A stretch of 64,000 nucleotides of DNA from Pseudooceanicola spongiae. Its GTDB lineage: Bacteria > Pseudomonadota > Alphaproteobacteria > Rhodobacterales > Rhodobacteraceae. Positions 8,704 through 61,234 of the stretch are shown piece after piece (the first letter of the stretch is position 1; every line of letters starts with the position of its first letter). Under the pieces are notes generated by a model. That model worked only from the letters and a program-made list of their open reading frames with translations, searched no databases and was not told where the DNA came from. The stretch is taken from NCBI RefSeq assembly GCF_014899185.1, contig NZ_CP045201.1, forward strand, positions 3,325,501 to 3,389,500, in the 5' to 3' direction. A program made the translations under genes and the position numbers.

Positions 8704-8789
8704 TGGTGCCCAGGAGAGGACTCGAACCTCCACGTCCTTGCGAACACTAGCACCTGAAGCTAGCGCGTCTACCATTCCGCCACCTGGGC
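8704..8789 (-). tRNA. tRNA-Leu (anticodon CAG)
   Basis: The minus strand folds as a class II tRNA. The acceptor strand GCCCAGG pairs with CCTGGGC, the T-loop is GGTTCGAGTCC, there is a long variable arm typical of leucine tRNA, and CCA is encoded at the 3' end. The anticodon stem GCTAG/CTAGC encloses the loop TTCAGGT, which gives anticodon CAG at 8754-8756. The length with CCA is 86 nt. Confidence 0.97.
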
Positions 8790-12592: not shown

Positions 12593-12643
12593 GATTTCCG
12601 ATGTCGGTATCCTGTCGGTATCCCATCAGTATCGGGGCGGTGC
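12593..12643 (+). repeat. CGGTAT 11-bp-period element, copy A
   Basis: Four units start at 12605 (CGGTAT), 12616 (CGGTAT), 12627 (CAGTAT) and 12638 (CGGTGC), each exactly 11 bp apart, preceded by GATTTCCGATGT. It lies about 50 nt downstream of the gltD stop, in the sense direction. It is the most diverged of the three copies; the others are at 36573-36623 and 60204-60254. I know no name for it. Confidence 0.8.
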
Positions 12644-36536: not shown

Positions 36537-36572
36537 GGCCCCGCGTTAACCCTCCCCCCGAGGCTGTCACAG

Positions 36573-36623
36573 GCACCGTTCGGATACCGTTCAGATACCG
36601 ACGCAATACCGACATGCCAAATC
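36573..36623 (-). repeat. CGGTAT 11-bp-period element, copy C
   Basis: On the plus strand the units read GCACCG (36573), ATACCG (36584), ATACCG (36595) and ATACCG (36606), each 11 bp apart. On the minus strand this is GATTTGGCATGT followed by three CGGTAT units and CGGTGC. A 33-nt core is identical to the copy at 60204-60254. It lies in the sense direction past the phoD stop and its terminator. Confidence 0.82.
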
Positions 36624-36658
36624 GCCGGTTTTCTCCGTTAACCAATCCCTCAAAACGC

Positions 36659-52473: not shown

Positions 52474-52644
52474 GAGGCTCTCCGGGCGGCTTTGGTGCCC
52501 GGTTACCCCAATGCGCAAAGACACGCAATTCCGCGCGACGCCTGTGGGGGCGTCATTTCACCCGGCCCGCCGCAAAAGCACAGGCTTTGGCCGGGTTTGC
52601 CCCTCTTGCGCCCGATGCACCGTCCCCCTAGTCTCTGCCCCACC

Positions 52645-52722
52645 TCGGGGTGCCTGACAGGGCTGAGATGCAATGATGCGAACCCGTAGAACCTGATCCG
52701 GTTAAAACCGGCGGAGGGAAGG
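52645..52722 (+). promoter_or_regulatory. TPP riboswitch
   Basis: Classic THI-box: CTCGGGGTGCC (52645-52655), the pyrimidine-sensor core GGCTGAGATG (52671-52680), ACCCGTAGAACCTGATC (52683 onward), a short variable stem CCGG/CCGG, and the closing GGAGGGAAGG (52713-52722). Paired P1 strands close it. It lies about 57 nt before the thiB start and should lower thiBPQ expression when thiamine diphosphate is plentiful. Alternative pairings of the expression platform were not worked out. Confidence 0.97.
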
Positions 52723-52778
52723 TCGGGCGGATGCGCTTCGCCAATCTTTCTCCGCCCGCAACTGTAAGGATGGATGCC

Positions 52779-57848: not shown

Positions 57849-60188
57849 ATGGGCGTGAAAGAGATTTTCGAGACGATGGAGTATGGTCCTGCGCTGGAAA
57901 CGGCCAGCGAAGCGATGGCTTGGATCGCGGCGCATGAGGGGCGGTTCGGACATTTCATCGATGGTCGGTTTACCAAGCCGGGGGCTGTTTTCGCGACGCG
58001 CAATCCGGCGACGGGGGAGGCTTTGGCCGAGATCTCGCAAGGGAGCCAGGCGGATGTGGATGCGGCTGTGGCGGCGGCGCGCAGTGCGCAGGGCAAGTGG
58101 GCGGGACTGGGGGGGCATGGCCGGGCTCGGGTGATCTATGCGCTGGCGCGGCTGGTGCAGAAGAACGCGCGTTTGTTTGCCGTGCTGGAAACGCTGGACA
58201 ATGGCAAGCCGATCCGGGAGAGCCGGGACATCGATATCCCCTTGGTACATCGGCATTTTTACTATCACGCCGGGATGGCTCAGCTGATGGCGGCCGAGCT
58301 TCCGGGGCGTGAGGCGGTCGGTGTTTGCGGACAGGTGTTTCCGTGGAATTTCCCGCTGTTGATGCTGGCGTGGAAGGTCGCGCCGGCGCTGGCGATGGGG
58401 AATGCGGTGGTGCTGAAGCCGGCCGAGTATACCTCGCTGACCGCTTTGCTGTTTGCCGAGATCTGCGTGCAGGCCGGGGTGCCGAAGGGGGTCGTGAACA
58501 TCGTCACCGGCGATGGCGCGGTGGGCGAGATGGTGGTGTCCCACGCCGGTGTGGACAAGGTGGCCTTTACCGGCTCGACCGAAGTGGGGCGGAAAATCCG
58601 TGTTGCAACAGCGGGTTCGGGGAAATCTCTGACGCTGGAGCTGGGCGGAAAGAGCCCCTACATCGTGTTTGAGGACGCCGACCTCGACAGCGCCGTCGAG
58701 GGGCTGGTCGATGCCATCTGGTTCAACGGCGGGCAGGTTTGTTGTGCCGGGTCACGCCTGTTGGTGCAGGAGGGGATTGCTGAGGCATTCTATGCCAAGC
58801 TGCGGGCGCGGATGGATAAATTGCGCGTGGGCAATCCGATGGACAAGGGCGTCGACGTCGGTGCGATTGTCGATCCGGTCCAGCTGGAGCGGATTCGCGG
58901 GATGGTCGCCGGCAGTGAGGGCGAGGTATATCAGCCCGAGTGTGATCTGCCGGAGGGATGCTATTACCCGCCGACGCTGATCACCGGGTTGGAGAGCGCC
59001 AACCCATTGATGCAGGAAGAGATTTTCGGGCCTGTTCTGGTCTCGACCACCTTCCGGACGCCGGAGGAGGCCGTCGCTGTCGCCAATGATACGCGCTATG
59101 GGCTGGCCGCGACGCTGTGGAGCGAGAACGTCAATCTGGCTCTGGATGTCGCGCCAAAGCTGGTTGCGGGGGTCGTCTGGATCAACGGCACCAATATGTT
59201 CGACGCCGCTGTCGGCTTTGGCGGTGTGCGTGAGAGCGGCTTTGGCCGTGAGGGCGGATGGGAGGGGCTGAGCGCCTATACCAAGCCCTCTGGCAAGCAG
59301 AAGGCCCTGAAACCGCAGGAGAAATTCAGTGGAGAGGCGGGCGTCGTCGAGGGGCTGGACCGCACTGCAAAGTTCTATGTCGGGGGCAAGCAGGCACGGC
59401 CTGATGGGGGCTATGTACGCCCGGTCTTTGGCAAGGGCGGCAAGGTGTTGGGGCAGGTCGGCATCGCCGGGCGCAAGGATTTGCGCAATGCAGTTGAGGC
59501 CGCGCGTGGGGCCAAGGGCTGGGCCGGGGCGAGCGGGCATCTGCGGGCACAGATCCTCTATTACATCGCTGAGAATCTTGAGGCGCGAAGCGCCGAATTT
59601 GCAAGCCGTATCAATGATTTGAATGGGGGTAAGGCGGGCGCTGACGAGGTCGCGGCGGCGGTGTCGCGGCTGTTCACCTATGCGGCCTGGGCTGACAAGT
59701 TCGGCGGCGATGTACGCTCGGTTCCGATCCGCGGCGTGGCGCTGGCGATGCGCGAACCCGTGGGCGTGATCGGCGCGCTTTGCCCGGACGAGGCGCCTCT
59801 GCTTGGCCTGATCTCGGTCATGGCGCCGGCGATCGCCATGGGCAACCGGGTGGTACTTGTGGCCAGTGAGCATGGCCCGCTGAGCGCGACGGATTTCTAC
59901 CAAGTGCTTGATACATCTGATCTTCCGGGTGGTGTCGTCAATATCCTGACGGGCAGTCACGCTGAGCTGGCGCCGGTCATGGCGTCGCATATGGACATCG
60001 ATGCGGTCTGGTCGTTCTCCTCCTCCGACGTCAGTGGCGTGATCGAGGCGCAGAGTGCGACGGACCTGAAACGGACCTGGGTCAATGATGGGCGGGCGCG
60101 GGACTGGTTTGCCGCCGAGGGCGAGGGGCGCGCCTTTCTGGAGGCCGCCACGGAGGTGAAATCGATCTGGGTGCCCTACGGCGAATAG
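57849..60188 (+). CDS. Aldehyde dehydrogenase, ALDH16-type double-domain
   Basis: Protein of 779 residues made of a full ALDH domain (about 1-485) and a second, catalytically dead ALDH-like domain (about 505-779). The first has the Glu in LTLELGGKSPYIV, and the catalytic Cys298 in NGGQVCCAGSR. FPWNFPLLMLAWK and FTGSTEVG bind NAD. The second half keeps EPVGVIGALCPDEAPLL and ITGSHAEL-like segments but has no cysteine motif and is cut short. This is the ALDH16 layout, known from bacteria and animals. deoC just upstream gives acetaldehyde as a plausible substrate. ATG 57849 is preferred over a TTG 18 nt before it. Confidence 0.92.
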   Translation: MGVKEIFETMEYGPALETASEAMAWIAAHEGRFGHFIDGRFTKPGAVFATRNPATGEALAEISQGSQADVDAAVAAARSAQGKWAGLGGHGRARVIYALARLVQKNARLFAVLETLDNGKPIRESRDIDIPLVHRHFYYHAGMAQLMAAELPGREAVGVCGQVFPWNFPLLMLAWKVAPALAMGNAVVLKPAEYTSLTALLFAEICVQAGVPKGVVNIVTGDGAVGEMVVSHAGVDKVAFTGSTEVGRKIRVATAGSGKSLTLELGGKSPYIVFEDADLDSAVEGLVDAIWFNGGQVCCAGSRLLVQEGIAEAFYAKLRARMDKLRVGNPMDKGVDVGAIVDPVQLERIRGMVAGSEGEVYQPECDLPEGCYYPPTLITGLESANPLMQEEIFGPVLVSTTFRTPEEAVAVANDTRYGLAATLWSENVNLALDVAPKLVAGVVWINGTNMFDAAVGFGGVRESGFGREGGWEGLSAYTKPSGKQKALKPQEKFSGEAGVVEGLDRTAKFYVGGKQARPDGGYVRPVFGKGGKVLGQVGIAGRKDLRNAVEAARGAKGWAGASGHLRAQILYYIAENLEARSAEFASRINDLNGGKAGADEVAAAVSRLFTYAAWADKFGGDVRSVPIRGVALAMREPVGVIGALCPDEAPLLGLISVMAPAIAMGNRVVLVASEHGPLSATDFYQVLDTSDLPGGVVNILTGSHAELAPVMASHMDIDAVWSFSSSDVSGVIEAQSATDLKRTWVNDGRARDWFAAEGEGRAFLEAATEVKSIWVPYGE

Positions 60189-60203
60189 GCCTCTGAAATC
60201 GTC

Positions 60204-60254
60204 GATTTCCGACGTCGGTATTGCGTCGGTATCTGAACGGTATCCGGGCGGTGC
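60204..60254 (+). repeat. CGGTAT 11-bp-period element, copy B
   Basis: Units at 60216 (CGGTAT), 60227 (CGGTAT), 60238 (CGGTAT) and 60249 (CGGTGC), each 11 bp apart, follow GATTTCCGACGT. The palindrome CCGACGTCGG (60209-60218) spans the first unit. The core from 60214 to 60246 is identical over 33 nt to the minus-strand copy at 36573-36623. It lies 16 nt after the aldehyde dehydrogenase stop, before the terminator. Confidence 0.85.
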
Positions 60255-60331: not shown

Positions 60332-61234
60332 TCAGGCGGATTTCGGATCGTCGAGGACATCGCGCCAGGAATGCTTGGGCTGAAAGCCGACGAGGCTCTT
60401 GGCGCGGGCGTTGGAATAGAAGGTCTCGGTCTCGCCAATCTCGCCCTTGATCGGCACGTTGTCGTAGAACCGGGCGATCAGTTCGGACGAGGTGTCGGCG
60501 ACGGAGTGATCGTCATTGGAGACGTTGAAGACCTGATAGCCGAGGCCATCCGTCTTGAGGCAGCAATCGACCATCTGACCCAGATCGCGCGCGTCGATAT
60601 AGGCGAAGATGTTGCGCCGACGCTGCGCCGGGTTTGCGAAATAGGCGGGGAAATTTTTCTTGTACTCGTCCGGCTCGATCACGTTGTTGATGCGCAGCCC
60701 GTAGATGTCGAAGCCGCTGCGCTGCTGAAAGCCGAGCGCCGTCGCCTCGTTCACCACCTTGGACATGGCATAGCTGTCCTCGGGCTCGGTCGGGTGATCT
60801 TCGTCGATGGGCAGGTAGACGGGGCGACGCTCGCCATCAGCAAAGCAGATGCCATAGGTCGTCTCGGAGGAGGCGAAGATCACCTTGCGGATGCCGAACT
60901 TCACCGCCGCGTCGAGGATGTTGTAGGTGCCCAGCGTATTGACGCGGAAACATTCGTTGTCGGAGGTGATCATGACCCGCGGGACGGCGGCGAAATGCAC
61001 CACCGCGTCGAAGGTCGGCATGCCTTCGCCCGACTCAAGCTCGTCCGGGGCGGCGTAGCTCATCATCACGTCATAGACCTGACCCGCGTCGGTGACGTCG
61101 ATGATGCGGTTGTCGACGCCCTCCATGTGCAGAGGCGTCTTGTCGACGTTGAGCACCCGGTGCCCCTGCGCCACAAGATATGCGACGGCGTGGTGGCCCG
61201 CCTTGCCTGCGCCGCCAGTAAACAGGATCCGCAT
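60332..61234 (-). CDS. NAD-dependent epimerase/dehydratase family protein
   Basis: Extended short-chain dehydrogenase of 300 residues. The N-terminal FTGGAGKAGHHA binds NAD. HFAAVPRV, the Ser/Thr at FASSETTYG and the catalytic YAMSK near residue 150 are intact, so it is likely active on a sugar or sugar nucleotide. LRINNVIEPDEY and VFNVSNDD follow. Which sugar cannot be told; uronate or UDP-sugar substrates are possible. A terminator-like hairpin lies about 30 bp upstream of its start. It converges with the aldehyde dehydrogenase gene. Confidence 0.88.
   Translation of the reverse strand: MRILFTGGAGKAGHHAVAYLVAQGHRVLNVDKTPLHMEGVDNRIIDVTDAGQVYDVMMSYAAPDELESGEGMPTFDAVVHFAAVPRVMITSDNECFRVNTLGTYNILDAAVKFGIRKVIFASSETTYGICFADGERRPVYLPIDEDHPTEPEDSYAMSKVVNEATALGFQQRSGFDIYGLRINNVIEPDEYKKNFPAYFANPAQRRRNIFAYIDARDLGQMVDCCLKTDGLGYQVFNVSNDDHSVADTSSELIARFYDNVPIKGEIGETETFYSNARAKSLVGFQPKHSWRDVLDDPKSA

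Follow-up and report, generated by a model that had tools for sequence, protein, structure and literature searches.

The window, a 64,000-bp stretch (G000:C1:3325501-3389500, G000 being the own genome) of a 4,365,781-bp chromosome, contains in a convergent region an intergenic element that begins with GATTTCCGACGT at 60204-60215 and continues with CGGTAT at 60216, 60227 and 60238 and CGGTGC at 60249-60254 (Table 1). Direct reading confirmed the exact 11-bp step that had been claimed for these four units, as well as the three occurrences of the layout in the window, the two others being located at 12593-12643 on the forward strand and at 36573-36623 on the reverse strand. The title of the original prediction spoke of four CGGTAT units, which is right for three of them, the fourth being CGGTGC as its own text said. 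The window also harbors a TPP riboswitch at 52636-52736 (+, 71.2 bits) and a tRNA gene at 8707-8789 (-).

Table 1. Coordinates of the arrays in the window and of their surroundings
Feature	Position in the window	Strand	Remarks
Core array of the 60204 copy	60216-60254 (G000:C1:3385716-3385754)	+	CGGTAT three times, then CGGTGC; 11-bp steps
5' flank with A/T-rich tracts GAAATCGTCGATTTCCGACGT	60195-60215	+	conserved from about -20 to -1 in 97 copies
Upstream gene, aldehyde-dehydrogenase-like	57849-60188	+	from reading of the translation only; ends 27 bp before the core
Downstream convergent gene, NAD-dependent epimerase-like	60332-61234	-	from reading of the translation only
Core array of the 12593 copy, 3' of gltD	12605-12643	+	third unit CAGTAT
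Core array of the third copy	36573-36611	-	between convergent genes
GTTAAC, CGGTGC side of the third copy	36545-36550		position class +60/+61
GTTAAC, other side of the third copy	36637-36642		position class -32/-31

Copies and anatomy of the array in the own genome

With up to three mismatches allowed, the pattern CGGTATN5CGGTATN5CGGTAT has six matches in the window, whereas 100 dinucleotide shuffles gave 0.01 on average. Across the own genome, the same three-unit pattern gave 259 matches versus 3 for the reversed pattern, and a four-unit pattern with at most one mismatch gave 103 (52 forward and 51 reverse) with none for the reversed control; these are counts of matches, and a single array may yield two or three overlapping ones. 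The genome scan that had been proposed thus led far beyond the three places in the window. A motif-free scan of the intergenic DNA in 20 evenly spaced 20-kb stretches looked for any 5-mer that occurs identically three times at constant spacing. Step 11 gave 21 hits, 19 of them within CGGTAT/ATACCG arrays, whereas steps 7-10 and 12-15 yielded none in the same stretches.

In 97 copies the four units begin at positions 0, 11, 22 and 33. The third one ends in A rather than T in 32 of these copies, and the fourth is CGGTGC in nearly all of them; since the copies were selected by pattern, the fixed letters are partly there by construction. A/T content peaks near -29, -19, -10, 4, 15, 26, 42 and 63. 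The hexamer GTTAAC, which is rare in the own genome (0.035 per kb in a 400-kb sample), is concentrated beside the arrays at -32/-31 and 60/61. GTTAA was observed on the left of 21 and TTAAC on the right of 22 of the 97 copies, and both together in 17 against 4.8 expected if they were independent; a second protein may bind at GTTAAC.

When 100 of the 103 four-unit copies were mapped on the 4.37-Mb chromosome, no 200-kb bin was empty, and the spacing was slightly more even than random (CV 0.80 versus 0.98, a value as low being reached in 0.01 of simulations). A replichore-oriented, KOPS-like motif was considered for the same 100 copies and rejected, the strand changing 48 times along the chromosome against 50.4 expected.

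Distribution, inheritance and decay across species

A sequence-only model of 71 positions was applied to 22 congeners, with at most 150 candidates scored per genome, so that the own count of at least 138 matches is possibly too low. It gave 90 matches in Pseudooceanicola sp. HF7 (G001), 81 in P. atlanticus (G015), 24 in P. antarcticus (G016) and 12 in G018, while six congeners had 1-4 and 11 had none. In a wider sample of the family, the CGGTAT pattern was matched in 14 of 248 genomes. Among the matches listed (80 of 114 stretches), titled records with an exact 30-mer included Roseovarius, Shimia, Boseongicola, Sedimentitalea, Silicimonas and others. One array apiece was also found in the viral contigs L051 and L052.

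Array-rich species are scattered within the genus tree. In a tree of gltD, five separate changes are needed to account for the five genomes richest in arrays, and the array-free G012 is sister to HF7 with a support of 100/97. Another 11-bp array was looked for in G012, and none was detected at step 11 in a 400-kb sample; the 35 hits of this genome at step 14 all come from a single tandem array. This array of 14-bp repeats, CCAGAACGGTACGG at L303:7757-7830, has a step unrelated to that of the 11-bp arrays.

Where arrays are present, many occupy orthologous places. The neighboring gene was common with an own copy for 9 of 20 sampled copies in HF7, 5 of 20 in P. atlanticus and 11 of 20 in P. antarcticus (25 of 60 overall), and orientation was kept in 25 of 26 pairs. 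For instance, the site between yhhQ and arfB (names from reading of the translations) carries full arrays in the own genome, HF7, P. atlanticus and P. antarcticus, a shortened array in G010 and, as judged by eye, degraded units in G003, G006, G007 and G018; the model reports this site in 7 of 22 loci, missing G003 and G007. In the same way, the array 3' of gltD is found at the same place in HF7, P. atlanticus and G018 as in the own genome, the model reporting it in 4 of 22 loci. Spacers and flanks show the style of the species despite the orthology of the sites. These observations are read, on sequence grounds, as an old set of sites that is kept under selection in some lineages and decays in others; the opposite direction, a gain of sites, may also be compatible with the data.

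A further feature of the yhhQ-arfB loci (L332-L353) is a conserved, terminator-ended stretch, AAAGGAGGTGCTCTAGTGTCT ... CCACCTCC, that resembles an unannotated small RNA. It contains Shine-Dalgarno-like and anti-Shine-Dalgarno-like segments, and an 18-base piece of it is present in 22 of 22 loci; no Rfam match at the gathering threshold was obtained for it in L244 or L254.

A solitary BrnA-type protein as candidate reader of the arrays

The genes adjoining 277 arrays, some of them present in two sets, were clustered (530 proteins, 79 clusters), and one family of small proteins was found on the same strand directly behind the array in all four members of its cluster. The own genome has a single gene of this candidate reader, at G000:C1:2582691-2583047, outside the window. 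Its product matches Pfam PF14384 (BrnA_antitoxin) at 4.3e-13 and 49.9 bits against a cut-off of 26.1, and PF14384 is the only Pfam family above cut-off in each of the four proteins scanned. This family we take to be one of ribbon-helix-helix (RHH) proteins. No PDB chain was retrieved at E<=1 with the reader profile. A predicted model built from three sequences (pLDDT 49) has the order strand-helix-helix, which, at this low confidence, fits an RHH fold. The gene lies directly behind an array in the own genome, P. atlanticus, HF7, Sedimentitalea and L161.

In the search of 22 congeners, strong hits to the reader were confined to the own genome (2.1e-76), P. atlanticus (9.2e-27) and HF7 (3.3e-22), which are those with 81-138 arrays. 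Short weak hits (4e-5 to 5e-4) were seen in G010, G009 and G007, and none in P. antarcticus (24 array matches), G018 (12) or G012. At the level of the family, of the 8 genomes that reach five or more array matches, 5 have a homologue above 100 bits, versus 9 of 240 others (p 1.4e-5), whereas G221 (11 pattern matches), G100 (7) and G125 (5) had no homologue at E<=1e-6. The arrays without a homologue, in these three genomes as well as in P. antarcticus and G018, are tentatively read as the outcome of reader losses. Since the gene had been found beside arrays in the own genome, P. atlanticus and G164 (whose protein is the same as that of Sedimentitalea), co-occurrence in these three is not independent, and because the reader profile contains the own and the G164 proteins, both top its hit list. 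Leaving the three out, the family count becomes 3 of 6 versus 9 of 240 (p 1.6e-3); leaving out the own genome and P. atlanticus, the count within the genus is 1 of 1 versus 0 of 19 (p 0.05).

The four own neighbors of the reader gene belong by Pfam to FUSC, cold shock, DUF4168 and ArsR. BrnT was recognized neither among them nor, by eye, among the called neighbors of 12 loci, where small genes may have escaped the gene caller, so the reader looks like a solitary DNA-binding protein derived from an antitoxin, as far as can be predicted from its neighborhood. A gene for a cold-shock protein occurs near the RHH gene in 6 of these 12 loci, across genera (L354, L356, L362, L364, L371 and L372).

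Among the 14 genomes whose homologue exceeds 100 bits, nine reach at most four CGGTAT matches, and seven of those have none. Such homologues without CGGTAT arrays prompted a test of how the array is spelled before each gene. The reader profile had hits in 77 of the 248 genomes, from which 30 loci were fetched and, together with P. atlanticus and HF7, gave 32 homologues. In the 260 bp upstream, the best period between 8 and 15 was 11 for 29 of the 32 (the exceptions being G229, G189 and G024), and a period of 11 with a self-identity of at least 0.6 was found in 27 of 32 upstream regions versus 1 of 512 control windows, taken elsewhere in the same reader loci, and 3 of 640 shuffles. The upstream arrays were picked by best self-similarity and their dialects then named by eye, the units including CGGTAT, TCGGAC, GTATGG, ATGCAC, CGGCAT, TTCATAAC and others. 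Dialects seen so far only before the reader gene include CGGCAT, GTAGGAG, TTCATAAC and GTGCACA. TTAAC was present in the 200 bp upstream of the start codon in 25 of the 32 homologues. In G189 (L383), the homologue is preceded by CGGTATG units that, by eye, follow one another in 12-bp rather than 11-bp steps.

If the upstream array displays the dialect of its reader, the genome is expected to hold dispersed copies in the same dialect. Assignments for 12 genomes were fixed before the dispersed copies were searched, each search covering 22 chosen genomes. TCGGAC arrays were found 52, 82, 101 and 51 times in the predicted G216, G213, G109 and G080, versus 4 times in G111 and 0-1 times in the 17 other genomes. 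GTATGG arrays gave 85, 38, 172, 33 and 14 matches in the predicted G190, G150, G112, G094 and G161 and 0-2 in 17 unpredicted genomes, with a reversed control that was not clean for this dialect (up to 22 matches in G150 and 11 in the own genome). Finally, ATGCAC arrays gave 95 matches in G276, 84 in G077 and a weak 9 in G092, versus 0-3 in the 19 other genomes. Altogether, 11 of the 12 predicted genomes had 14-172 matches and G092 had 9, against 0-4 in non-predicted genomes. The ATGCAC-type matches of G276 are skewed in strand, with 73 forward and 22 reverse.

The dialect also has a correlate in the protein. Residue x of a VTLxLD motif is Tyr in all 8 CGGTAT-type homologues and in 1 of 24 others, and this lone exception, G254, has an array that is a near variant of the CGGTAT type. 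The VTLxLD strand is presumably the part of the RHH fold that enters the major groove of DNA. As the reader proteins are related, the agreement of Tyr with the dialect is a correlation and not an independent test.

Gene context, proposed function and competing explanations

The position of the arrays was assessed with a purpose-written gene caller rather than from annotation. Of the 97 own copies, 29 lie in convergent and 10 in divergent regions, 24 are co-directional and sense and 29 co-directional and antisense, while another 3 fall inside genes and 2 at the edge of a locus; the background regions of at least 100 bp (n=139) comprise 12 convergent, 83 co-directional and 44 divergent ones. Convergent regions are enriched (29 of 92 intergenic copies versus 12 of 139, p 1.5e-5) and divergent ones depleted (10 of 92 versus 44 of 139, p 2.3e-4), while the 53 co-directional copies are neutral as to strand (p 0.58). 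The suggested check of position and strand therefore uncovered a bias in position and no preference in strand, and the claim that all copies sit in sense orientation behind the 3' end of a gene, correct for the three copies in the window, did not extend to the genome. In 114 titled loci from several genera including Pseudooceanicola, 44 copies were antisense, 25 sense, 16 convergent and 10 divergent, 1 was inside a gene and 19 were at edges, against a background of 165 co-directional, 87 divergent and 29 convergent regions; divergent regions were again depleted (p 4e-5), yet antisense copies outnumbered sense ones. Two genomes of other dialects were sampled for 20 copies each. In G190, 9 were antisense, 5 sense, 2 convergent, 2 divergent and 2 inside genes, and in G276, 7 were convergent, 5 sense, 4 antisense and 4 divergent, the background in each being 15 co-directional, 5 divergent and 1 convergent. 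The convergent excess is thus present in the own genome and in G276 and absent in G190.

We consider it likely, judging from sequence, that the array is the docking site of the solitary BrnA-related RHH protein and that this protein is most likely a factor of nucleoid architecture. At the level of sequence, the strict 11-bp step, the strand neutrality, the sites common to several species and the co-occurring RHH gene, preceded by an array in the dialect of the dispersed copies of its genome, lend good support to the original idea of a row of protein-binding sites facing one side of the helix. One RHH dimer would occupy each 11-bp unit, and four of them would thus stand in a row along the same face of about 44 bp. 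The reader probably autoregulates through the array that precedes its gene and would bind the roughly 100 other arrays, mostly past gene ends or at convergent junctions and on either strand. There it would act most likely as an accessory architectural factor, that is an insulator, a road-block or an anchor, rather than as a regulator of promoters, and nucleoid architecture in the manner of MatP/matS would be its most likely function. The arrays and their positions, the shared sites and degraded copies, the co-occurring gene, the array upstream of it and the matching dialects are established at the level of the letters; from these we infer physical binding, autoregulation, decay after reader loss and an architectural role, which is the most likely one from the position of the arrays. 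Counting against this docking and architectural reading are the five genomes with arrays and no homologue, the low confidence of the predicted fold, the three own copies within predicted genes, the lack of a convergent excess in G190 and the excess of antisense copies in the titled loci.

The RHH protein could instead be a conventional repressor or activator, and the arrays the operators of a large regulon made of the adjoining genes. This would agree with the presence of an array before the reader gene, with the excess of antisense over sense copies in the titled loci and with some antisense copies that, by eye, stand shortly upstream of a gene. However, divergent regions, which hold two promoters, are depleted and promoter-free convergent regions enriched, and the adjoining genes, read from their translations, look like mixed core genes with no evident common function, which makes a regulon rather unlikely.

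It has to be considered as well that phased A/T tracts over about 100 bp could draw DNA gyrase downstream of transcription units, as in gyrase-wrapping or BIME-like sites. The A/T peaks of the array and its placement past gene ends are in line with this, and PMC6379681 describes a 130-bp gyrase motif of E. coli in which the GC content is phased, as well as an excess of gyrase cleavage sites behind strongly transcribed operons. Nevertheless, gyrase is essential in nearly all bacteria (PMC12324340), yet close relatives are nearly or wholly devoid of arrays, and conserved unit letters with dialects matched to an RHH protein are unexpected under indirect readout; a gyrase site appears improbable.

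Even less credit is given to a mobile repeat of the REP or MITE type that a transposase would have spread. High copy number and a patchy species distribution do recall REPs with their RAYT transposases (PMC2817692), but the units are direct and not palindromic, sampled congener copies share neighboring genes with own copies and keep their orientation, one site shared among congeners retains degraded units, and the co-occurring gene encodes an RHH protein. Finally, an RNA element of mRNA 3' ends, the alternative first proposed and suggested by the three sense copies past genes in the window, can practically be discarded: sense and antisense copies are balanced in the own genome, the consensus of 73 sequences folds at -1.83 kcal/mol with two-sided changes in 0 of its 5 predicted pairs, and no Rfam match reached the gathering threshold at the copies within the window. 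The indifference to strand and the lack of covariation point to a DNA element rather than an RNA one.

The docking of a solitary RHH protein on dispersed arrays may be compared with several known systems. In sequence, the nearest is BrnA of the BrnT/BrnA pair (PF14384), the own protein and the three others scanned being above the cut-off of this family; unlike BrnA, the reader has no recognized BrnT neighbor and co-occurs with arrays across the genome. In site geometry, the nearest by analogy is the plasmid partition system ParR/parC, whose RHH protein binds direct repeats of 11 bp that stand in tandem next to its gene. The array of 11-bp direct repeats in front of the reader gene, with its predicted binding, would be alike, whereas the other arrays are dispersed over the chromosome and have mostly four units; no gene of a partner motor was noted by eye in 12 reader neighborhoods. 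In manner of working, though not in family, site or distribution, the nearest analogue would be MatP/matS. While matS is a single short site, the arrays consist of four 11-bp direct repeats; they number about 100 and occupy all 200-kb bins, whereas matS is confined to the Ter region, and here the domain is of BrnA type, an array precedes the gene of the reader and the dialect varies with the genus. Homology to MatP was not found, PF14384 being the sole Pfam family above cut-off and no PDB chain being hit at E<=1. The likeness would lie in an RHH protein with specifically recognized sites dispersed on the chromosome, since MatP, the Ter organizer of E. coli, has an RHH domain and the Ter region contains more than 20 copies of matS (PMC12756933). 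REP elements are intergenic, often present in more than 100 copies per genome, patchy and species-specific (PMC2817692); the arrays are likewise intergenic, about 100 in number and patchy, but they are direct repeats with no palindrome, as the weak consensus fold also indicates, they co-occur with an RHH gene, and their sites are shared vertically with orientation kept.

Neither the arrays nor a solitary BrnA-like protein acting across a whole genome was described in the titles and abstracts of the best-ranked open-licence PMC literature, searched partly with broad queries. If the docking reading is true, it would reveal an undescribed genome-wide DNA-binding network in a widespread group of marine bacteria, and it would suggest a function for solitary PF14384 genes that are otherwise named antitoxins. 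It would also offer a natural experiment, made of four array dialects with dispersed copies, of more that are known only before the reader gene and of congeners that have neither the reader nor the set of arrays. It would then be possible to test directly the specificity of RHH proteins, the coevolution of a reader with its sites and what the loss of an accessory nucleoid protein costs. In the broadest form, to which we give an even chance, Rhodobacteraceae would possess a family of chromosome-organizing proteins evolved from an antitoxin, each docking on four-turn arrays of its own dialect at tens to a hundred gene ends, with reader and sites shifting together and the network decaying once the reader is lost.
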